From positions 10,936,163 through 11,000,162 of the forward strand of contig NC_088297.1 of assembly GCF_032854445.1 (NCBI RefSeq): a stretch of DNA of 64,000 nt, given 5' to 3'. The position numbers and the translations under genes are program-made. Below the pieces are notes generated by a model. The model was not told the DNA's origin, did no database searches, and was given only the letters and a program-made list of their open reading frames with translations. Source of the DNA: Liolophura sinensis (lineage: Eukaryota > Mollusca > Polyplacophora > Chitonida > Chitonidae). This document shows, piece after piece, positions 6,993 through 64,000 of this stretch (the stretch's first letter is position 1; every line of letters begins with the position of its first letter).

Positions 6993-7970
6993 TTGATTAA
7001 TACAGCAATTCTGATTGGCCAAAAATCTCATGGATAGCATCTTGAAATACACACTATGGGGCCTCCAATTCACTAACTGTTAACAGTGGTGTGCATGTAT
7101 AAAGATGAAAAAATGTTGATTAATATAGCAATTCTGATTGGCCAAAAATCTCATGGATAGCATCTTGAAATACCCACTATGGGGCCTCCAATTCACTAAC
7201 TCTTAACAGTGGTGTACATGTATAAAGATGAAAAAATGTTGATTAATACAGCAATTCTGATTGGCCAAAAATCTCATGGATAGCATCTCGAAATACACAC
7301 TATGGGGCCTCCAATTCACTAACTGTTAACAATGGTGTACATGTATAAAGATGAAAAAATGTTGATTAATACAGCAATTCTGATTGGTCAAAAATCTCAT
7401 GGATAGCATCTTGAAATACACACTATGGGGCCTCCAATTCACTAACTGTTAACAGTGGTGTACATGTATAAAGATGAAAAAATGTTGATTAATATAGCAA
7501 TTCTGATTGGCCAAAAATCTCATAGATAGCATCTTGAAATACACACTATGGGGCCTCCAATTCACTAACTGTTAACAGTGGTGTACATGTATAAAGATGA
7601 AAAAATGTTGATTAATACAGCAATTCTGATTGGCCAAAAATCTCATGGATAGCATCTTGAAATACACACTATGGGGCCTCCAATTCACTAACTCTTAACA
7701 GTGGTGTACATGTATAAAGATGAAAAAATGTTGATTAATACAGCAATTCTGATTGGCCAAAAATCTCATGGATAGCATCTTGAAATACACACTATGGGGC
7801 CTCCAATTCACTAACTGTTAACAGTGGTGTGCATGTATAAAGATGAAAAAATGTTGATTAATACAGCAATTCTGATTGGCCAAAAATCTCATGGATAGCA
7901 TCTTGAAATACCCACTATGGGGCCTCCAATTCACTAACTGTTAACAGTGGTGTACATGTATAAAGATGAA
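6993..7970 (+). repeat. 123-bp tandem satellite, eight copies
   Basis: Unit starts at 6993, 7116, 7239, 7362, 7485, 7608, 7731 and 7854 (TTGATTAATACAGCAATTCT), giving an invariant 123-bp period. Units differ by only a few substitutions (for example ATACAG/ATATAG, CTGTTAAC/CTCTTAAC) with no indels visible. Each contains an inverted CCAAT box (GATTGGCC), a GTTAAC palindrome and TACATGTATAAAG. The low divergence implies recent amplification or homogenisation. Confidence 0.95.
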
Positions 7971-7976
7971 AAATCA

Positions 7977-21905: not shown

Positions 21906-23790
21906 TTTTTGTGTGTGTGTTAGTGTGTACAGTGAGTTTGATGAGAGGTGGGCTACTTGCTGCAAGTCTGATGTGGGGTTAGGGGTGTATACTGAGTCTG
22001 ATATGGGACTATGGTGTACAGGGAGTCTAATGTGGGGCTGCAGGTGTAAGGTGAGTGAGTGAGTGCTTGGGGTTTAACGTCGTACTCAACAATTTTTCAG
22101 TCATATGACGACGAAGGAATCATTAGGGTGCATGCACGTGTAATGTGCCTCCTTGTTGCAGGACGGATTTCCACCGCTCTTTTATTTAGTGCTGCATCAC
22201 TGAGACGACTTACCGAAGGCAAGTAAGCCGCCCCGCCCGAGCCATTATACTGATACGGGTCAACCAGTCGTTGCACTATCCCCTTCATGCTGAACGCCAA
22301 GCGAGGAAGTTACAACTTCCTCTTTTAAAGTCTTAGGTGTGACTCGACCAAGGATTGATCCTGGATCTACCGGTCCCGAAGCGGACGCTCTACCAACTGT
22401 GCTATCCGGGCCGGTGCGCAGGTGTAAGGGAGTCTGAAATGGGGCTGCAGGTGTACAGTGGGTCTGATGTGGGCTTGGGAGTGTATACTGAGTCTGATGT
22501 GGGACTATGGCGTACAGGGAGTCTGATGTGGGACTGAGGTGTACAGGGAGTCTACAATGGTGTACAGTGGGTCTCATGTGGAGCTGGGTGTGTATAGCGA
22601 GTATGATGTGGGGCTGCAGATGTACAGTGAGTCTGATGTAGGGTTGAAGGTATAGAGTGGGTTTAATGTGGGGCTGGAAAGTGTACAGTCTGATGTGAGC
22701 CTGGGTGTGTACAGTGTCTGATGTGAGCCTGGGTGTGTACAGTGTCTGATGTAAGCCTGGGTGCGTACAGTGTCTGATGTGGGGCTGGGTGTGTACATGG
22801 GGCTGGAGGGTGTAAACTCTGATGTGAACCTGGGTGCGTACAGTGTCTGATGTGAGCCTGGATGTGCACAGTGTCTGATGTGAGCCTGGGTGTGTACAGT
22901 GTCTGATGTGAGCCTGGGTGTGTACAGTGTCTGATGATGTGAGCCTGGGTGTGTACAGTGTCTGATGTGAGCCTGGGTGTGTATAGTGTTTGATGTGAGC
23001 CTGGGTGTGTACAGTGTCTGATGTGAACATGGGTGTGTACAGTAAGTCTGATGTGGAGCCGGGTGTATACATTGAGTCTGACATGGGGCTAGGGGTGTAC
23101 AGTAAGTCGAATGTGGCACTGAGGTGTACAGGAGTCTGCTGTGGGCTGAATGTGTGCTGTGAGTCTGATGTGGGACTGTGGTGTACAGGGAGTCAGATGT
23201 GGGACTGTGGTGTACAGGGAGTCTGATGTGAGGCTGCGGGTGTACAGTGAGTCTGATGTGGGGCTGAGGTGTACAGTGAATATGATGTAGGGCTGAGTGT
23301 GCACAATAAGTCTGACGTAGACTGGGGGTTAATATTGTGAGTCTGATGTGGGATTGGCTGTATGCATTGAGTTTGATGTGGGGTTGGGTGTGTACGGTGA
23401 GTCTGGTGTAGGGCTTGGTGTGTATAGTAAGTTTGATGTAGGGCTAGGGGTGTACAGTGAGTCTGAGGTGGAGCTGAGGTGTATAGTGAGTCTGATGTGG
23501 GACTGAAAGTACAGATGCGGGTGAGTCTGATGGGTGAGTCTGAAGTGGGGCTGGGTGTGTACATTTGTTTTGATGTGGAGCTGAAAATGTGCAGTGGGTC
23601 TGATGTGGGCTCAAGGTGTACAGTGGGTCTGATGAGAGCAGGGTATCTACAGTGAGACAGATGTGGGGCTGGGTGTGTACAGTGAGTCTGATATGGGGCT
23701 GGGGGTGTACTGTGAGTCTCTTGAGAGGCTGGAGTGTACTGTAAGTCTGGTTGGAGGATTTGAGTTTGGTGTGAATCTGATGCGGATACA
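21906..23790 (+). repeat. Minisatellite of ~28-bp units, interrupted by a SINE
   Basis: Degenerate units around GTGTACAGTGAGTCTGATGT and GGGGCTG. A more homogeneous core at about 22690-23040 has the 28-bp unit GTCTGATGTGAGCCTGGGTG plus TGTACAGT. Long open frames on the minus strand (up to 274 codons) consist only of translated repeat (His-Pro-Gly-Ser-His-Gln, Thr-Ser-Asp-Thr-Val patterns) and also read through the SINE. They are not genes. Confidence 0.95.
22040..22429 (-). mobile_element. Full-length SINE family B inserted in the minisatellite, 12-bp duplication
   Basis: GCAGGTGTAAGG flanks the element at 22040-22051 and 22418-22429. On the minus strand the head reads GGCCCGGATAGCACAGTTGG then TAGAGCGTCCGCTTCGGGAC, with an A-box-like AGCACAGTTGGTAGAGCG and a B-box-like GGATCAATCC. 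The tail is CACTCACTCAC. About 366 bp. This is the most complete family B member here. The flanking repeat resembles the host minisatellite, so the duplication is slightly less decisive than elsewhere. Confidence 0.88.
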
Positions 23791-43200: not shown

Positions 43201-46200
43201 TAAAGAGTGATTATGTGGACTAGTGCTAATTACAAAGTGTTCTCGTTAAAAATGTTCATGTGGAAAAGTGTTGATGCCAAGAACTAAAATAATGATAAAT
43301 TCTAATAAACTGAAAGGTGGTAAAGTATTGATACTGGAAAGTTATAACATAAAAAATGTTATTCTTTAAAATATGATAGAAAGGATAGTTTAATAAGCTT
43401 CAGAAATGTGAATATATGGGTCACTTTGAGAATATATTGAATTGTCACAAATGTGATGAAAGGAGAAGAAGGGGAGATGTGATTTCTTCTTCGAATATCC
43501 TTGAATCCCCTTTTAATGCTAGGCTGCTTCCCGATTTCGGGCCACTTTGGTTTAGTGGTTAGCGTATTAGTACAGCACACTATTCCATGAGCCTTTCACC
43601 ATTGCAGTTACTGTGATTTTAAGCCCTCTCCAGTTGTATGTGGGGAGATCAGCCAGCAACTTACGAATGGCCATGGATTCTCTACAGGCTATGCCTAGTT
43701 TTCTTCCACTAAAATGCTGGCTGAAATTAATAAATGTGTCTTTGAAAGTTGAATCTTCACATTGCTGCATCAGTGCAATCAGTGATATGCTATCTCCTGA
43801 ATTCCACCTAATGTTTGATTTGTGAAAATTCGCTTTAAGAAAAGCACCTAGAGACTAAAATGATATTTTTGATGCCAATATATAAGTTTTTCTGATAACA
43901 AGTGAATCAAACTCTAAAAGTGGCCGTAAATTCAATCAAAATCAAGCTAAATGTCTTACTTGAAAAAATACAGCACTTGTAATTTTCTTTAAAAATGTGC
44001 TTTTGTGTGACATTTGTTATTTACTCTTTCTTGGTTTTGTCTACAGGATAGGCTGTCCAGAGTTCACATCTCCTAGTTACAAGCCAACACCACAAGAGGG
44101 TGCCTCCCACTCTCTTTTTTTCCCAGATAATGTGATATATCCCGGCCACCCCAGATTCAGGTTTGTAAATATTTGTGACTGTATGTACTGTATATCTCTG
44201 GCTGAGTGGTTAGCTTGCCAGCATGGCATAAGGACTCATTGTGGCTTCTTCTGTGGTCGTGAGTGGAAAGGTCTGCCCACAATCTGCAGAGGGTCATGGA
44301 TTCCCCACTGGACTCTGCTGCTCTAGATGCTTAAAGGAGAAGAAAACTTAAAATTAAGACACAATAGGCTGAAAATAAACATTTTAAAACACCAATCAAA
44401 TAAATACACAAATCAAAACTACATTGGTTGGGTGGATCAGTGTTAGCACTTCGTGAAAAGTTTAATGTTATCAGTCTACAGAGAATAATGCCACAGAATA
44501 GACTTGAATAAACATCTTTCAAACATGCGAAATAGTTGAGAAATTACAGTAGTTTCAGTCCCAAAAGTAATATTTTGTGAAATTTATTCCAAGTGCAATT
44601 TTGGGGGCACCTATTTGACATAGTATGTCAGAAGCACCAGTGATTCACAGTTACTAGGTCTTTTTTTAAAATACATGACAGTTGACTTATACATATACTG
44701 AGTTAATAGGACTTTTTTTTTAATGACACAGTTTACACTGATTAACATCTGCCTGCCCCTGCAATATAACAACCTTCATTTCACGATTGAATTTAATTTA
44801 AAATTTGTGTCTGTAACTGAACGGCACATTTAGACAGTTTCTGAGAGTGGTTGTGATCAGTTGTGAAATTCAGTTACCTCTGAAAATGCACTTTTTGGGG
44901 GAAATTTTAATGGCAAATGTTGTATCATGCATAAGTGGTATTGATTGACAGCAGTTGGGTCTGCTTTAATTTAGTCTTTAGTCTGAAATGCCTCTGAACC
45001 TGTACATTCTTGGTAAATGTTCAGGTCATTATGTCAGATGTCCAAACACTTATGCTGTGTTCTGCTAAGCTGTTATGACATTGCAGTTTAGAGTGAAAAA
45101 TAACTGCATGCCTGCACAACAAAACTGTTGGCATTCCACTTACCTGACCTACGCCCACGTGTATTTGCCTCCATATCTCTGTTACTTGTATTGCTGGATT
45201 GTGACAGTTCTGTTGACTTTAAAAAACGTGTTTTGAGGTGGGTTTCAAAAGTAGAATGGTATACTGGGACAGTGTAAATTTGAGCACCAAAAGGAATATT
45301 TTTAATAATTTAATTTGCCAGATTTTGGGGCAGGTATTAGGGGAAATTTTTTGTCATTCAGTGGCAGTATTGATTCACACTGACTGTATTCTGCTGAGCT
45401 GTTATGACATTGCAGTTTTCAGTCAGTAAGATCTGCACACCCACGTGATGAAACTGCAGGCATTTCACTTACCTGACCTACGCCCACGTGTATGTGCCTT
45501 CTTGTCTCTGTTACTTGTATTGCTGGATTGTGAGAGTTCTATTGACTTTAAAAAACATGTTTTGAGGTGGGTTTGAAAAGTAGAATGGTATACTGGGACA
45601 GTGTAAATTTGAGCACCAAAAGGAATATTTTTAATAATTTATTTGCCATTTTTTGGGCAGACTTTGGGGCAAATGTGATGTCATTCAATGGCAGTATTGA
45701 TTCAAACTGACTGCATTCTGCTGTTATGACATTGCAGTTTTTCAGTCATTAAGATATGCACACCCACGTGATGAAACTGCAGGCATTTCACTTACCTGAC
45801 CTACGCCCACGTGTATGTGCCTTCTTGTCTCTGTTACTTGTATTGCTGGATTGTGATTGTTCTGTTGACCTTAAAAATGTGTTTTGAGGTGGGTTTGAAA
45901 AGTAGAATGGTATACTGGGACAGTGTAAATTTGAGCACCAAAAGGAATATTTTAAAAAATTTAGTTGCCACTTTTTTGGGCAGACTTTGGGGCAAATGTG
46001 ATGTCGTTCAATGGCAGCATTGATTCAGACTGCCTGCATTCTGCTAAGCTGTTATGACATTGAAGTTTAGAGTGAAAACAACTGCACGCCCAAGCGATAA
46101 AACTTCCGGTATTTCACTTACCTGACCTGTGTGTCTCCATGTCTGTGTTTCTTATTTTGTCAGATTCTGAGAATTGTGTTGATCTCAGAAACATGTTAAG

Positions 46201-58200: not shown

Positions 58201-61200
58201 TATTTGTATGAATTTTACACCATTCTCAAGAATATTTGACTTATTTGACGAAAATGGCCAGCATTATGGTGAAAGGATTCAGGCAGGGAGGAAAATTAAC
58301 CCATTAGGGAAATATGGTAGAAAAATTGTCCAGCTGTTGGGGGAAGTGTCCATTAAGGGAAATTGTCCATGGGGGAGTTGTCCATTAGGGAAATTGTCGA
58401 TAGGAAGACATGTTCATAAGGGTAATTGTGAATAGGGGGAAATGTTTATACTTAAAACTGTCCATAGGGGAAAACGTCCATAAGGGGAATTGTCCACAGG
58501 GGAAAATTTCCAAACAGGGAAACGACCCATAAGGGGAAATGTCCATACGGGAAATTGTCCACGGGGAAATGTCCACAGGGGGAAATGTCCACAGGGAGAA
58601 ATGTCCACAGGGAGAATTGTCCACAGGGGGAAATGTCCACAGGGAGAAATGTCCACAGGGGGAATTGTCCACAGGGGGAAATGTCCAAGTCCACGTAATA
58701 ATTAACACATAGCTCTATAACTGTTCTACAGCCATTGAGTGCAGTGGGCAAACCACAGGGTCACAGTCCAGCCAGATGCCACTTAATTCCCATGATACAT
58801 GTGTCCTGAATTGATCATATGCCCATAAACCCCCCAGCATCAAACAGGATCTGACCATGGTCAAACCACCATACAGTCCAACCAAGATGGACGTAGCATA
58901 TTCGGATATTAGATCCGGCTGTACTGTGCATACATGAGGACTATCTATTGAAGCACACGGTTTTTCAGATCACAAGTCTGAGTGTTGTCAGATTTTTTGA
59001 TCTCTTCCACAGAGTTTGAGGAAACATTTGTTTTATCTGTTAAGTTTAGGGCTCTCAGAATAAATGTATGGTATTTGTCAGGTAAATCTTTTTGTTCCGC
59101 TCACACACACACACACACACATACATAGATTTGTGGCTTTGCTGTGTTGATATAACTTGTACACATTCACACATTATGTAAGTGACAAGAACGGGTATAT
59201 CCATTGCTGTATAACACTATTTAAATGGGAGTCTCTGATAAGTTGTAGACTGACCCCAGCTTATGACAGGAATGTAGGTTTCCCCTGGACTCTGCCCGGT
59301 GTCCTCCCATAATGCTGGCTGCCATTTTATGAGTGAAATATTCTTGAGCATGGCCTAAAACACCAATCACATAAATAAATAAATAATACAGGAATGTTAC
59401 ATGCATAATTATCTGTAGACACAAGCATAAACTTCTAGTTTGGAGGTGTGAAAGGCATTTATCAGTCTCAGGCTTAATTAGCTAAATTTCTTAAGTTATC
59501 TATATACTGTATTTCAGAGAAAGTTTGGCATGTAAAAATACAATTTCCAAAACACATAGAGAGCTTAAAATGATACTGTAACTGCCAACACCTAAGCTTT
59601 TCTGATAAATTGATCACACATAACAAAAAAAAGAAAGCAATTTTTAAGTGACTATGAGTTATTTGATTTGATTAGTGTTTTATGCCATTCTCAAGAATAT
59701 TTCACTTATACGACGATGTCCAGCATTATGGTGGGTGGAAACAGGGCAGTGCCCAGGGGAAACCCATGACCATCTGCAGGTTACCGGCAGACCTTCCCAC
59801 TTATAGGACTCTATGAGTTAGGGGAATCAGTCAAAATAAATGAAAATGTGAAAAATGCGAATTTTAGTTGAAGAACGGCATTTTAGGCCAATCGTTTTGG
59901 CCCAAGTTTCAATCTATTATCAATTTTGAGCTACATATACTTTCTGTGTTGGCTGCACTGATCAGTTTATAGCAATAAAGTTTCAGATGGAGCAATACTC
60001 GTATCAGTATAATGGTTTGGGCGGGGTGGCTTACTTGCCCTCGGTAAGGTGTCTCAGTTTAGCAGCACTAGATAAAAGAGCGGTGGAAATTTTGTCCCTG
60101 CAACAAGGGGGCACATTACAAGCACTCACTCACTCACTCTTCAGCTCAGCCTCTTAATTTTCTCCATCGTTCATCCACTCTTGATTACTTTTGATGAAAC
60201 TTTTTTTCAGCCAGTGTAGGCTGATGAAAACTTTTAGTCAATGTGATAAAAACAGATCATTTTGGGCAGATCACATGATACAGCAGCACTTTCAACAATA
60301 AAGAGTTTGAACCCAAAACTCCCCTACTGACATTTGATCACATTTACCCATCGATCCATTCTTTTGTGTTCGTGAATAATGAATTGGAGGGTGGTAACTT
60401 TCATTCTTACTTTCATTCAAGCATACTTTAAATGTGGCAACAACTCCTGTTTTCTTTTTAAATATCTTTCAATTTAAAAAAACAAAAAGAGAAAAACCGG
60501 TGAGAAGTGTTCTCATTTGTCAGTCAAATTTATCAAATGAGATACATTTCTTAGGGCTTTTTTTATCTTTTTGAGCCAAAGGCTACCCTGGAAATGTTTT
60601 GCCAGCTACATGGCAGAGAATTAAATGAAGTAGAAGAGGAGGTTTTATAGTAGGCGGCTACTTGGGTCAATTTTCTGCAGAAGTACATGTAGCAGGTGGC
60701 GGGTTCAATGTAGATGATAACCACCTTCTAATTAAGCAAATGTAAAGTACGAACCAAGTATACCAGTTGGTCAGGAATGCAGCATTTATGATGTTAATGT
60801 TCTTTTTCCAGTTATCGTTGAGTGCAGCATCACCTATTTACCGTGGCTTGCTGGCAGACATTGACTGTCGCTGGACAGTGATATCCCAGTCTGTGGACGA
60901 CAGAGTCAAAGAAGAAAGGGGGGAAGAGGTAAGAGCGTGGTGTGTCTCAATAAGGGAAGCGGGTTGGGGAGTGGAATGTTGAGGAACAGTACCTATAACA
61001 GTTTGATGTCTCCAAAATGTGAAGGGAGTGCATGCAAGAGCCTGTTGTGTTAGGACAGGGTGGGGGAATAGTAGTCAGAGAGGAGGGGGCGTGGGGTAGA
61101 GGTAAGAGTGTGGTGTCTCCATATAGGGACGGGGGAGAAGCAGTTCATGCAAGAGCTTATTGTGACAGGACAGGGTGGGGGTATAGTAGTCAGAGAGGAG

Positions 61201-64000
61201 GGGGTGTGGGGAAGAGGTAAGAGCCTATTGTGACATGACAGGGTGGGGTACAGTAGTCAGAGAGGAGGGGGCGTGGGGAAGAGGTAAGAGCCTGGTGTCT
61301 CCATATAGGGACGGGGGAGAAGCAGTTCATGCAAGAGCCTGTTGTGACAGGACAGGGTGGGGATATAGTTGTCAGAGAGGAGGGGGTGTGGGGAAGAGGT
61401 AAGAGCCTGGCATCTCCATATAGGGACGGGGGAGAAGCAGTTCATGCAAGAGCCTGTTGTGACAGGACAGGGTGGGGATATAGTTGTCAGAGAGGAGGGG
61501 GTGTGGGGAAGAGGTAAGAGCCTGGCGTCTCCATATAGGGACAGGGGAGAAGCAGTTCATGCAAGAGCCTGTTGTGACAGGACAGGGTGGGGGTATAGTT
61601 GTCAGAGAGGAGGGGGCGTGGGCAAGAGGTAAGAGCCTGGTGTCTCCATATAGGGATGGGGGAGAAGCAGTTCATGCAAGAGCCTATTGTGACTGGACAG
61701 GGTGGGGGCATAGTAGTCAGAGAGGAGGGGATGTGGGGAAGAGGTAGGAGTATGGTGTCTCCATATAGGGGTGGGGGAGAAGCAGTTCATGCAAGAGCTT
61801 ATTGTGACTGGACAGGGTGAGGGTATAGTAGTCAGAGAGGAGGGGGCGTGGGGAAGAGGTAAGAGCCTGGTGTCTCCATATAGGGATGGGGGAGAAGCAG
61901 TTCATGCAAGAGCCTGTTGTGACAGGACAGGGTGGGGGGGTATAGTTGTCAGAGAGGAGGGGGTGTGGGGAAGAGGTAAGAGCCTGGCGTCTCCATATAG
62001 GGATAGGGGAGAAGCAGTTCATGCAAAAGCCTGTTGTGACGGGACAGGGTGGGGATATAGTTGTCAGAGAGGAGGGGGTGTGGGGAAGAGGTAAGAGCCT
62101 GGCGTCTCCATATAGGGACGGGGGAGAAGCAGTTCATGTAAGAGCCTGTTGTGACAGGACAGGGTGGGGGTATAGTTGTCAGAGAGGAGGGGGCATGGGG
62201 AAGTGGTAAGAGACTGGTGTCTCCATATAGGGACAGGGGCGAAGCAGTTCATGCAAGAGCCTGTAGTCTCTAACATATACTTTGTTTGAAAGAAAACTAA
62301 TCAGCATTGTGGGAGGAGGACACTGCATTGCTCCATGTAAACCACTAACCTTGGGCAAATCAGTTGTAAACTTTTTCACTTGTAACATACAGTTATGCTG
62401 TTGATGGAATTGATCAGGTAGTCTTCAACAAGCATTACACTATGAAGACACTCACTCAAGTGTTGTCGACCCAGTATTGTCGCCAAGGCCACACAAGCAT
62501 TGACAGCAGCTAGAAATATGAGGAAATTCAATGTATCATTCAAATTATCAAGTCAGTTGTCCAGATGTAACAAAACAGCATTCATGCCGTGATTGTAGTA
62601 GTATAAACAGTGTAAATAATTTCCATGCACCCGTTTATGTGTACAACTTTCTGACAACCTCTTGGAACAAGGATCATTGTTTGGGTTCTTGTGGGCAGGG
62701 CGACAGATTAGCCGGGAACATCTGTCAGAGCTAAGCCCATAGGATTAACAGATTATACCTCACGTGAGGATAATCCGGTGGATCTGCTGGATGTTGAGAA
62801 TAACAGCCCAGTTGCTTCCTTCTGCGTGCATATGCTTACATGTGTTTATAATATGTGAAGAAGAAAAAAGAGGAAGAAAATAAATTACCAAAAGAGAACA
62901 AAAATTACAAAACCTCCGCATAAATGTAGATAGTAATTTAGAGGGTTTGTCATTATTACTTTTTTTTTTAATGCTTTTTGACTGTTTTGTAAAATCTTCG
63001 GTGTAAAAGAAATAAATAATAAAAATAAAACTTTGTTCTTTATTTATCCTTTTATTCAAGCTTCATTATTAAACAAACAAAAAAATTAATAGAATTGATG
63101 TCCATTACAAAAAAATTGAATTGATAGAATCTTTGACTATAACGTCATTATGGTACAAGGCTATTTCATGCAAATTTGTCTTTGTACGTAAATAATGAGC
63201 AATAATCGTTCAATCCCGGCTTTAGACATGGACAGAGAAATTGTAGATCCCCTTCTTCTCACTTTTTGTGTGGCTTCGGTGACCATAAGCAGTCAGCGGC
63301 TCCCATGTGTTGTTGTTCACCAATATGGTTCACAAATCTGTAGGGATATTTAGAAAAGTTTGTCAGTAACTTGCCAAAGGTCAGTGGTTTACCATGGGCA
63401 ATCTAGTTTCCTCCTGCATAAAACTGACAGCCATCTTATGACTGGAAAATTCTTGTATGTATGACATTTTTCTCCCGGGGCCTCTTTGCGGTTTTCTCCC
63501 ACCATAATGCTGGTCGCAGTCATGTAAATGAAATATTCTTGAGTGCGGTGTAAAACACCAATCATAAAGATAGATTAATAAATTGTGTATAACATTAAAC
63601 ACCAATGAGGAATTTGCCAATGACATCATTACGATAATAAATTACATTCTCTAAGGTTGAATATTGCATGCAGTTTTGCCTTTATACATGAATTTTGTAT
63701 ACGTAGCATTATTTTGTTAACCATGACAGAAGGGTGTGAGGTGTTGCTAAAAAATACCCCATATATGTATGCACAGATAAGTCATTGTGGTACGTGGGAA
63801 GGTCTGTCTCTGCTAGGTTTCCTCACACCATAATGCTGGCTGCCGGTATATAAGTGAAATATTCTTGAGTACGGCATAAAACACCAATGAAATAAATAAA
63901 TAAATCATTGTGTCGTTTGCTGTGATCTAAACACATATTATCACTTCTTGTTTGATAGCTGCTGAAGAATTATCGCTACAGAATAAACAAGTCTCGTTAC
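40146..64000 (+). CDS. GCLC: Glutamate-cysteine ligase catalytic subunit, exons 1-9 (3' part outside window)
   Basis: Spliced CDS: 40146-40295, 41288-41397, 41708-41827, 42915-42980, 44047-44160, 47477-47535, 49400-49617, 60812-60928, 63959-64000. It gives 996 nt or 332 residues, roughly the first half of an enzyme usually about 630-640 residues long. All introns are GT-AG and every junction keeps frame. The enzyme joins glutamate to cysteine with ATP, the rate-limiting first step of cytosolic glutathione synthesis. Recognition rests on the [13 protein letters not shown] start, GDEVEY across exons 1/2, [20 protein letters not shown] (about residues 93-112), [26 protein letters not shown] across exons 6/7, [20 protein letters not shown] in exon 7, [10 protein letters not shown], and [17 protein letters not shown] in exon 8. 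The acidic residues near 50-52 and Glu103 lie where the family's metal and substrate site is expected. No frameshift or internal stop seen. Confidence 0.97.
40716..40905 (+). mobile_element. SINE family A copy in GCLC intron 1
   Basis: Diverged head, then CTACGTGGGAAGGGCTGGCA, CAATAATGCTGGCTGTCGTT and a TACGAATGAAATAAATGAAG end. An old copy. Confidence 0.8.
40918..41205 (+). mobile_element. SINE family C copy in GCLC intron 1
   Basis: TCAATCCCGGCTTTCGATAA, then GGCTCCCACCAGTATGGTGTG, AGTTTGTTAGTAACTTGC, CCACCCATAAAATTGCCTGTC and a CATCAGATAAATGAATAAG end. The same block order occurs at 63208-63462, so this is a separate family whose 3' end distantly resembles family A. Confidence 0.6.
41288..41397 (+). 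CDS. GCLC: GCLC exon 2
   Basis: Acceptor TTTGTTTCAG, donor CCTGA|GTAATT. Residues 51-86 plus two bases of codon 87. Starts [12 protein letters not shown]. In-frame reading past the donor meets a stop (TAA) at once, which confirms the boundary. Confidence 0.94.
41708..41827 (+). CDS. GCLC: GCLC exon 3
   Basis: Acceptor TTTATGTTGCAG, donor CTAAG|GTAAAA. Encodes the highly conserved [20 protein letters not shown] segment and ends NLVESNMKL. Phase 2 on both sides. Confidence 0.96.
42460..42619. mobile_element. MITE-like element, CCCTAATTCCT family, in GCLC intron 3
   Basis: Contains TTTTGTCTCCAAAATCAAAT, AATGTGCATAAATTGC and a right end of TTGAGGAATTAGAGTA, all as in the copy at 10410-10589. 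The opposite terminus is eroded. Confidence 0.5.
42915..42980 (+). CDS. GCLC: GCLC exon 4
   Basis: 66-bp exon with acceptor GTCGCTGTTTTAG and donor CCCGAG|GTAAGC. Encodes [21 protein letters not shown] with split codons at both ends. Confidence 0.93.
43020..43350 (+). repeat. Degenerate AAAGTGTT-type simple repeat in GCLC intron 4
   Basis: Loose repetition of GAAAAGTGTTnATG and AAAAAGTGAT words with no fixed period. A decayed tandem array. Confidence 0.5.
43541..43735 (+). mobile_element. SINE family A copy, old, in GCLC intron 4
   Basis: GGGCCACTTTGGTTTAGTGG head, then TCACCATTGCAGTTACTGTG, GGCTATGCCTAGTTTTCTTC and AAAATGCTGGCTG. The 3' end is eroded. Confidence 0.7.
44047..44160 (+). CDS. 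GCLC: GCLC exon 5
   Basis: Acceptor TTTTGTCTACAG, donor TTCAG|GTTTGT. Encodes [20 protein letters not shown], then [17 protein letters not shown], flanked by split Arg codons. Corresponds to the GCPGF...SLFFPD segment of other animals. Confidence 0.95.
44196..44415 (+). mobile_element. SINE family A copy, broken, in GCLC intron 5
   Basis: CTCTGGCTGAGTGGTTAGCT head, GTGGTCGTGAGTGGAAAGGT and CTGCAGAGGGTCATGGATTC. An unrelated insert separates it from the terminal CACCAATCAAATAAATACAC at 44390-44409. Confidence 0.6.
44468..44548. mobile_element. MITE remnant, CCCTAATTCCT family, in GCLC intron 5
   Basis: ATCAGTCTACAGAGAATAATG through CTTGAATAAACATCTTTCAA to GAAATAGTTGAGAAATTACAG parallels 1558-1636. 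Confidence 0.5.
45055..46260 (+). repeat. ~325-bp tandem repeat, about 3.7 copies, in GCLC intron 5
   Basis: TCTGCTAAGCTGTTATGACA or its variants mark units at 45061, 45390, 45717 and 46040 (spacings 329, 327, 323). The first three units contain ACCTACGCCCACGTGTATnTG with an E-box CACGTG, and a segment (GAGCACCAAAAGGAATATTT) shared with dispersed family E. The last copy is diverged and truncated, and lacks the E-box. Confidence 0.9.
47477..47535 (+). CDS. GCLC: GCLC exon 6
   Basis: 59-bp exon with acceptor TTTTGTTCTTCAG and donor TTCCAG|GTAAGA. Encodes [19 protein letters not shown]. Enters in phase 2 and leaves in phase 1. Confidence 0.94.
47770..47892 (+). repeat. 14-bp tandem repeat with TCATGTGA in GCLC intron 6
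   Basis: About eight or nine copies of GCATCATGTGACAT, with variants TCATGTAA and TCATATAA. Each intact unit contains TCATGTGA, the M-box type of E-box. Confidence 0.9.
48064..48355 (-). mobile_element. Full-length SINE family A in GCLC intron 6, 8-bp duplication
   Basis: GTTGTAGT at 48064-48071 and 48348-48355 flanks a complete copy. On the minus strand it runs AGGGCCTCCGTGGCTCAGTC to AAATAAATAAATAAATAC. Antisense to GCLC. Confidence 0.9.
48581..48920 (+). mobile_element. Possible family C-like SINE in GCLC intron 6
   Basis: The end, CTCCACTCATAAAATTGACC through ACATCAAACATTCCGGTAAA and TAAATGA, parallels the 3' ends of families A and C (CCCATAAAATTG...). The 5' part is not matched elsewhere in the window. 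Confidence 0.4.
49012..49277 (+). mobile_element. Full-length SINE family A in GCLC intron 6
   Basis: GGAGCTTCCATGGTGGCGGT head, GTGGTTGCTGTGAGTTCAAG, CCATAATGCTAGCCGCCATC, and CACCAATCAAAGAAATAAAA end. It ends about 120 bp before the acceptor of exon 7. Confidence 0.88.
49400..49617 (+). CDS. GCLC: GCLC exon 7
   Basis: Acceptor TGTTACATTTCAG, donor CTG|GTGAGC, residues 208-279. Encodes [52 protein letters not shown]. The largest and best conserved exon in the window. GC content is visibly higher than the introns. Confidence 0.97.
49926..50218 (+). repeat. 54-bp tandem repeat
   Basis: TTTACATTTCCCAATGTAAC marks units at about 49930, 49984, 50038, 50092, 50147 and 50202 (54-55 bp). Each unit has ACTCCTACTTCTCACAATGC and ACTCCTACTTGAGCC. 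Confidence 0.92.
50586..50785. mobile_element. MITE-like element, CCCTAAATGAC family, copy 1
   Basis: Begins CCCTAAATGACTGTA and ends TACGTCACTTAGGG followed by TA, imperfect inverted termini. The interior shares GGTGCTAAAATTTAC, CTGGAAAAATG-like and CATGGATGAAATT-like blocks with copy 2. Confidence 0.65.
51165..51385. mobile_element. MITE-like element, CCCTAAATGAC family, copy 2, with TA duplication
   Basis: Perfect 14-bp inverted ends, CCCTAAATGACCTA (51167-51180) and TAGGTCATTTAGGG (51370-51383), with TA on both sides. The 217-bp body, TA target and short inverted repeats fit a non-autonomous Tc1/mariner-type element. No internal coding. Confidence 0.75.
51437..51652 (+). mobile_element. 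SINE family A, 5'-truncated, 10-bp duplication
   Basis: ACATATTGGA at 51437-51446 and 51643-51652. The body starts inside the element at AAGTCCAGCTCGTGCTGGCT and ends AATCAAATAAATAAATAAAT. Truncation is therefore original to the insertion. Confidence 0.9.
52448..52818 (-). other. Probable 3'UTR of the collagen-C1q gene
   Basis: The first AATAAA on the minus strand downstream of the stop is the complement of TTTATT at 52448-52453. The intervening 365 bp would be 3'UTR and includes the 34-bp tandem repeat. Confidence 0.4.
52546..52765 (+). repeat. 34-bp tandem repeat downstream of the C1q stop codon
   Basis: Six to seven units of GTCCTTGAAAGTGCTGGAAA followed by ATGTAGGATATTGG, with one variant unit (AGATCATGGGTT). 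On the minus strand it translates as a repeated Phe/Pro/Ser/Thr frame, which I regard as chance. Confidence 0.93.
52819..53444 (-). CDS. Collagen-C1q gene, last coding exon
   Basis: Carries the whole Gly-X-Y region and the whole C1q domain, ending LLYEDLVI-stop. A further sequon lies in the C1q domain (Asn-Asn-Thr, within [10 protein letters not shown]). The opposite strand has a Pro-rich open frame that is only the complement of the collagen repeat. Confidence 0.93.
52819..54477 (-). CDS. Secreted collagen-like C1q-domain protein, two coding exons
   Basis: CDS joins 54477-54183 to 53444-52819 for 306 residues. Donor GCTG|GTAAGT and acceptor TTATCACAG|TGGGG are both phase 1, and the join restores Val then GPQGPAG. 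Residues 1-25 are a signal peptide (hydrophobic [18 protein letters not shown]). Residues 26-99 are an unmatched spacer with N-glycosylation sequons at Asn26, 43, 81 and 87. Residues 100-165 are 22 uninterrupted Gly-X-Y triplets, and 166-306 form a globular C1q domain ([36 protein letters not shown]). Such proteins trimerise through the C1q head and act as secreted recognition or structural proteins. A role in innate recognition is an inference from expanded molluscan C1q families. Lies wholly inside GCLC intron 7 on the opposite strand. Confidence 0.92.
54183..54477 (-). CDS. Collagen-C1q gene, first coding exon
   Basis: Start taken at 54477 (MKSMSNQ) because it puts the hydrophobic signal core at residues 9-24. 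The frame is open further upstream, but a pyrimidine-rich acceptor (CTCCTCTCCAG, minus strand, ending near 54535) indicates that a 5'UTR intron ends there. Confidence 0.85.
55088..55200 (-). other. Putative untranslated first exon of the collagen-C1q gene
   Basis: On the minus strand CTAACAG|GTAAGTG at 55088/55087 is an excellent donor, about 550 bp upstream of the acceptor near 54535. The 5' limit of this exon cannot be placed. Confidence 0.4.
56208..56320 (+). mobile_element. SINE family A 3' half
   Basis: CCCCCTGGGCTCTGCCCGGT, CCATAATGCTGGCAGTCATC and CACCTGTCAAATAAATCAAA. Confidence 0.8.
57981..58092 (+). repeat. Minisatellite CCTCCCTGTGGACATTTCCC
   Basis: About four to five units of 20-21 bp. 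The unit is the reverse complement of the unit in the array at 58304-58688. Confidence 0.9.
58197..58279 (-). mobile_element. SINE family A 3' fragment between inverted arrays
   Basis: ACACCATTCTCAAGAATATT through GGCCAGCATTATGGTG on the plus strand, the complement of the SINE 3' block. Confidence 0.75.
58304..58688 (+). repeat. Minisatellite GGGGAAATGTCCACAGGG, opposite orientation
   Basis: Roughly 18-20 units of 17-19 bp. Homogeneous at 58555-58688 and degenerate to the left, where units vary in the GTCCATAAGG part. Confidence 0.92.
59266..59397 (+). mobile_element. SINE family A, 5'-truncated, 10-bp duplication
   Basis: ACAGGAATGT at 59266-59275 and 59388-59397. The body runs AGGTTTCCCCTGGACTCTGC to CACCAATCACATAAATAAAT. 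Confidence 0.9.
59652..59820 (-). mobile_element. SINE family A, 5'-truncated, 10-bp duplication
   Basis: CTATGAGTTA at 59652-59661 and 59811-59820. On the minus strand the copy starts at AAGTGGGAAGGTCTGCCGGT and ends ACTAATCAAATCAAAT. Confidence 0.9.
60003..60141 (+). mobile_element. SINE family B 3' fragment
   Basis: TATCAGTATAATGGTTTGGG, then AGCAGCACTAGATAAAAGAG and GGGGCACATTACAAGCACTC with a CACTCACTCACTC tail. Head and terminal core are missing. Confidence 0.8.
60812..60928 (+). CDS. GCLC: GCLC exon 8
   Basis: Acceptor TTCTTTTTCCAG, donor GAAGAG|GTAAGAG, phase 0 on both sides, residues 280-318. Encodes [20 protein letters not shown] then [19 protein letters not shown]. Reading on into the intron meets TGA at 60980-60982. 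The last bases are unusually G/A-rich and match the minisatellite that follows in the intron. Confidence 0.96.
61018..62268 (+). repeat. 115-bp G-rich minisatellite repeating the exon 8 splice donor, GCLC intron 8
   Basis: About eleven units. GAGGTAAGAG-type donors occur at GT positions 61102, 61217, 61284, 61399, 61514, 61629, 61744 (GTAGGAG variant), 61859, 61976, 62091 and 62206 (after AAGTG). Spacing is 115 bp except one 67-bp unit and one of 117. Each unit reads roughly CAGAGAGGAGGGGGTGTGGG, GAAGAGGTAAGAGCCTGG, TGTCTCCATATAGGGACGGG, GGAGAAGCAGTTCATGCAAG, AGCCTGTTGTGACAGGACAG, GGTGGGGGTATAGTAGT. The frames open through it are translated repeat, not genes. Confidence 0.96.
62269..63207 (+). 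other. GCLC intron 8, unique part
   Basis: No gene. AT-rich, with A- and T-rich runs at 62860-63110. Confidence 0.5.
63208..63462 (+). mobile_element. SINE family C copy in GCLC intron 8
   Basis: TTCAATCCCGGCTTTAGACA, GCGGCTCCCATGTGTTGTTG, AAGTTTGTCAGTAACTTGCC and CCTCCTGCATAAAACTGACA in the order seen at 40918-41205. Confidence 0.6.
63464..63583 (+). mobile_element. SINE family A 3' half in GCLC intron 8
   Basis: CTTTTTGCGG-like start, then CCATAATGCTGGTCGCAGTC, TGAAATATTCTTGAGTGCGG and CACCAATCATAAAGATAGAT. Confidence 0.8.
63782..63912 (+). mobile_element. SINE family A, 5'-truncated, next to GCLC exon 9
   Basis: TCATTGTG at 63782-63789 and 63905-63912 flanks a copy that runs GTACGTGGGAAGGTCTGTCT to CACCAATGAAATAAATAAAT. 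It ends 54 bp before exon 9, leaving only a short native segment for the branch point and pyrimidine tract. Confidence 0.85.
63959..64000 (+). CDS. GCLC: GCLC exon 9, 5' part
   Basis: Acceptor CTTGTTTGATAG, then [14 protein letters not shown] up to the window edge, matching the family's NYRISKSRY segment. The exon continues outside. Confidence 0.92.
   Translation, partial: MLKNYRYRINKSRY

Follow-up and report, generated by a model that had tools for sequence, protein, structure and literature searches.

GCLC of the chiton Liolophura sinensis carries, in the intron behind its exon 8, a minisatellite of mostly 115-bp units with 11 decoy splice donors. We consider it probable (at roughly 0.82) that this array is a largely neutral junction minisatellite of the mirage kind: the exon-proximal donor is still used, and the array is removed with intron 8. 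Positions without a contig name refer to the window, i.e. the whole 64-kb stretch of DNA that was analysed.

The host gene was identified as GCLC by a profile search of the genome contigs (609 Mb in 632 contigs), where PF03074 matches follow on C3, one exon after another. Exons 8 and 9 match glutamate-cysteine ligase 3ig5 (E 4.5e-9), a yeast enzyme. Sixteen exons were placed with human GCLC as the query, the boundaries of exons 1, 2, 14 and 16 being uncertain. Exon 8 (60812..60928, plus strand; 117 bp, phase 0), which holds the exon-proximal copy of the junction, ends in the authentic donor GAG|GTAAGA (reading GAG|GTAAGAG), or at greater length GGGGAAGAG|GTAAGAGCGTGG. It is followed by the 3030-bp intron 8 (60929..63958, plus strand), the host of the array, and by exon 9, which starts at 63959 and into which the protein runs on. 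Reading past exon 8 reaches a stop after 51 bases, and a TGA in frame with the exon lies at 60980..60982 (plus strand). A divergent GCS/GCLC-like gene (C6:14712500-14722499, minus strand) has DDRTEEERKPV as its exon-8 counterpart, without the G-rich end. Further long minisatellites occur within the window at 6993-7973 (123-bp units), 22420-23749 (28-30-bp units) and 45060-46128 (329-bp units).

The junction minisatellite of intron 8 spans 61036..62264 (plus strand) and consists mostly of 115-bp units, with one 67-bp and one 117-bp spacing; in the TRF output, a 115-bp array covers 61219-62264 and related rows start at 61036. The sequence-only reading had placed an array about 90 bp past the donor. 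The array is there, and its regular part starts ~105 bp past the donor, after a degenerate-looking stretch (60929..61035, plus strand) of which the first ~35 bases are homologous to the unit and the remainder resembles, by eye, a degenerate unit. The decoy GTs come after positions 61101, 61216, 61283, 61398, 61513, 61628, 61743, 61858, 61975, 62090 and 62205, i.e. at spacings of 173, 115, 67, 115, 115, 115, 115, 115, 117, 115 and 115 bp. GT is kept in all 11 decoys, GGTAAGAG in 10 (decoy 61743 has GGTAGGAG instead) and the authentic 9-mer GAG|GTAAGA in nine; the plus strand of the 64 kb contains GGTAAGAG at 11 places, namely exon 8 and ten array donors. The first decoy (GT at 61102..61103, plus strand; GAG|GTAAGA) lies 173 bp past the authentic GT, the altered one (61744..61745, plus strand) reads GAG|GTAGGA, and the last one (62206..62207, plus strand) has GTG ahead of its GT (GTG|GTAAGA). 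The donor-bearing 115-bp repeat that had been described behind exon 8 is thus real, with donor copies at 61101-62205, and the transcript does offer eleven further donors. By a consensus table, which also served to place exon boundaries, 9 of the 11 decoys have the same score as the authentic donor, and some decoy use is therefore plausible. Every decoy would, as had been predicted, retain the in-frame TGA at 60980-60982, and each would therefore be non-productive.

The proposed origin of the repeat from the exon 8/intron 8 junction is borne out by comparison with the unit consensus (10 of the 11 units included). The junction reaches a local score of 50 against this consensus; 1000 dinucleotide shuffles score at most 31 (0/1000 reach 50), and 3370 other windows of the 64 kb, both strands included, at most 24 (0/3370 reach 50). 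Once the 17-base core is taken out, the intron flank scores above all 2000 shuffles, whereas the exon flank is equalled by 85 of 2000 and is not convincing. The similarity that had been claimed for both sides of the core therefore stands on the intron side and is weak on the exon side. In a self-alignment, which had been named as a check, the match to the unit extends 25 bases into the exon. Because shuffles match the exon flank this often, exon-side homology is firm over ~9 bases only; the firm shared part thus comprises ~9 exon bases plus ~35 intron bases, with further exon homology only hinted at. DNA queries of the genome, a search that skips common words and may thus miss them, returned no second locus for the array, and a dispersed repeat or transposon-borne satellite was rejected on this result.

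Exon 15 of the same gene (C3:11009095-11009215; exon plus array, C3:11009095-11010327) is, as its copies read, the clearer case. The 127-bp units of its array run from at least the last 83 exon bases through the donor into 44 bases of intron, and provide eight further CAG|GTAAG donors, with GT in 8/8 and donor scores at or above that of the authentic site in all eight. Relative to the exon, 7 of 127 positions are changed in the nearest copy and 22 in the last. Six of the eight copies have TGA where the exon has CGA, which indicates that copying proceeded from exon to intron. Extension past exon 15 meets a stop after ~23 bases. Across GCLC, junction arrays occur at two of the 15 donors and at none of the 15 acceptors considered (first acceptor and last donor left out).

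Constraint on the decoy sites gives no signal in either GCLC array, where the donor 9-mer is about as variable as its surroundings. It shows 2 variant cells versus 4.3 expected in the exon 8 array (10 of the 11 units) and 1 versus 3.0 expected in the exon 15 array (8 units), and as little variation is seen in 28 of the 80 and 43 of the 119 other 9-mers, respectively. Selection on the decoys and on donor choice, which the sequence-only reading had expected, is not supported by these counts, and the decoy sites are not visibly purged. The suggestion that the G-rich strand forms structure near the real donor also finds no support: in a fold model without G-quadruplexes, the fold at the exon 8 donor is ordinary (z -0.78) and is equalled in stability by 22 of 100 shuffles.

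Exon ends of other genes were surveyed in three families (i.e. TCP1, myosin and kinesin) found by Pfam search, with flanks fetched and exon boundaries computed for 128 exons (256 ends); the sample is small and is confined to these families. For TCP1, 50 matches were listed and 47 entered, two on C5 and C6:7942446 being set aside (long open frames); 2 of the 47 were without covering DNA, which left 45 analysed, several with shortened flanks. For myosin, 40 of the first 43 of 81 listed matches were taken (without C6:9124231, C8:20021696 and C10:15373935), and three matches inside the same DNA pieces bring the total analysed to 43. For kinesin, 40 of 132 listed matches were taken in order among those without internal stops. 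Ends with short flanks (<180 nt at two acceptors and one donor, <40 nt at one of each) were counted as negative.

An automatic screen returned six donors and five acceptors, which were then checked by eye. Clear copying into arrays was seen at 8 of the 256 ends, i.e. five donors (C8:53405971, C8:53407400, C1:72038329, C12:686729 and C11:2675303) and three acceptors (C1:67512493, C2:5378501 and C8:682171); two further acceptors (C8:53412069 and C10:35282571) were judged borderline by eye. The donor call at C8:53412069 was wrong by eye (the array abuts the real donor), and the arrays at C4:1247172 and C10:719970 adjoin an exon and were judged not to be junction-derived. A donor polarity, suggested by the 45 TCP1 exons (three donors by eye, no clear acceptor), was dropped on the totals for all 128 exons. 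At each of the three clear acceptors, it is the copy nearest the exon that runs on into conserved protein. Four of the five decoys listed for C8:53407400 are weaker than the authentic donor. The TCP1-family exon C8:53405971-53406162 (minus strand) is followed by 66-bp junction units in frame, with decoys from +66 to +396 and an open frame to +432, so that decoy use would add peptide, 22 residues per unit. Upstream of the myosin exon C2:5378501-5378653 lies a 32-bp array of decoy acceptors TTTGTAG|GTTTGAGCG in at least 14.3 copies. Outside the survey count, a motif search found a 126-bp array (C1:1903200-1904700; ..QEISELKREK|GTAAGTGAG) in which 62 open codons reach the donor and which resembles an exon end by appearance rather than by a homology check. 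It is the one exon-end-like case among 13 motif arrays inspected on C1; no exonic origin was established for the remaining 12.

Under the survey criterion, 983 of 11119 intronic grid points fall inside tandem duplications, as do 28 of 253 points lying 150 nt off junctions and 1 of 127 exon middles. Junctions (8/254) are spanned less often than the intronic points (28/253; p 0.0005, or p 0.002 if 10/256 junctions are counted). Such depletion is the expectation under selection, and it is uncertain here because 11 of the 28 control points fall inside the ten junction-array exons; without them the control becomes 17/242 and p 0.064, and we do not claim depletion. Genome-wide, a pattern of three AGGTAAG motifs spaced 105-135 bp apart matched 3105 times versus 1260 for the backwards motif, and CAGGTAAGT gave 9807 versus 4854. 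We do not take this as evidence of donor enrichment, since long arrays inflate the counts and the backwards motif clusters too (among the first 100 matches listed).

The passages cited on lancelet mirages name Adh3, the globins BflGb6 and BflGb9, troponin C and PGBD5 repeats (PMC3087553, PMC3902484). Lancelet mirages, as described there, and chiton arrays are both minisatellite-like tandem duplications across exon/intron boundaries with many units that bear splice signals, and both affect donors as well as acceptors (in the chiton, five donors and three clear acceptors in 128 exons). The units behind exons 8 and 15 are homologous to the exon/intron boundary and carry its splice signals, and the chiton arrays match lancelet mirages in such structural features. 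They differ in that the host is a mollusc rather than a cephalochordate, that exon 8 has 11 decoys, more than the 6 and 3 units given in the case of BflGb6, and that the chiton arrays are known from sequence alone.

A human CBS VNTR, c.1444_1467+7(16_21), is given as a 31-bp unit in 16-21 copies (PMC2630376). Like the chiton unit, it crosses a donor junction (24 exon and 7 intron bases, as read off the coordinates); it is shorter and human, its population variation is known, and no homology is claimed. In a known duplicated acceptor junction, the site closer to the exon, which is the more distal one, is strongly preferred, although that case has one duplicate and no array. The abalone TSSK1-like gene likewise has an intronic minisatellite in a mollusc (intron 3; 27-bp unit, length-polymorphic), for which the cited text does not state a splice-junction span (PMC6905558). 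An excerpt on an earthworm describes an intronic minisatellite without mention of splice-site crossing. Among the matches listed in a partial literature, covered by titles and starts of abstracts, there was no mollusc junction minisatellite.

A chance resemblance between the junction and an unrelated G-rich minisatellite is hardly credible as an explanation of the exon 8 array. The exon flank alone, not significant with 85 of 2000 shuffles as good, would allow it; however, the junction score is reached by none of the shuffles or windows, the intron flank alone beats every shuffle, and exon 15 plainly shows the same process. We also give very little credence to an assembly artefact. Tandem arrays can be mis-assembled, but the units of this array differ among themselves, and the HiFi reads average 8,347 bp in the published description of the Liolophura japonica assembly (PMC11068029), well over the 1.3-kb array.

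It is unlikely that the array works as a splicing rheostat, in which decoys compete with the exon 8 donor and unit number sets the nonsense share of GCLC mRNA, hence glutathione synthesis. Eleven nearby donors, nine of them identical to the authentic one over the 9-mer and all ending in a stop, would suit such a role, and lower activity is reported in the title of a study on the human CBS VNTR that PMC2630376 cites. On the other hand, unrelated genes and GCLC exon 15 share the arrangement, the decoy sites are without detected constraint, and in the lancelet examples RT-PCR, as quoted, suggests that regular splicing is undisturbed (PMC3087553, PMC3902484). Regulation of GCLC, including the tuning by copy number that the sequence-only reading had suggested, is unsupported, as nothing that shows it was found in the sequence of one assembled haplotype. 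Very unlikely, too, is an intermediate of intron or exon gain, with a unit becoming the new exon end, as the model outlined for lancelet globins proposes (PMC3087553). The in-frame, open units of the TCP1-family exon C8:53405971 would fit this model, but in GCLC the early stops behind exons 8 and 15 argue against it.

In the preferred reading of a largely neutral junction minisatellite, the array originated, as the homology shows, by tandem duplication across the exon 8/intron 8 boundary. The intron-side copies then grew to about eleven units and drifted, as the unit alignment shows, while coding constraint presumably holds the exon copy. Junction copies would be tolerated because splicing stays on the donor nearest the exon and excises the array with the intron. 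At donors, the original would remain the copy beside the exon, its use leaving the mRNA unchanged and the rest drifting in the intron. Stray decoy use would produce nonsense mRNA via the retained TGA, and this mRNA would probably be degraded. One rule, that the exon-proximal site wins, would keep the mRNA intact on donor and acceptor sides alike. The cause would be general rather than GCLC-specific: the survey points to introns dense in tandem arrays that do not spare exon ends, and the arrangement is not special to exon 8, as exon 15 and 8 of 256 ends elsewhere show the same. Against the neutral reading, one intronic minisatellite of C. elegans is described as enriched near multiply spliced exons; such repeats are therefore not always inert, and an effect of the array on splicing may be possible.

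We tentatively propose, at somewhat less than even odds, that junction copying is routine in chitons (~3-4% of sampled exon ends), that thousands of introns present series of almost identical splice sites, with the correct mRNA arising only from the site nearest the exon, that the spliceosome chooses among them by position alone, and that a few genes gain peptide stepwise (22 residues in the TCP1-family case C8:53405971). If this is true, chiton arrays would be a natural large-scale test of exon definition; they present a near-constant splice site at growing distance from the exon and would thus test directly the part of position in site choice. Gene prediction may err at exon ends with junction arrays. 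The papers cited describe mirages for lancelets; that a mollusc has them too, at a rate that can be measured, suggests that their formation is not confined to cephalochordates, and the many chiton cases could be used for testing ideas on intron gain.
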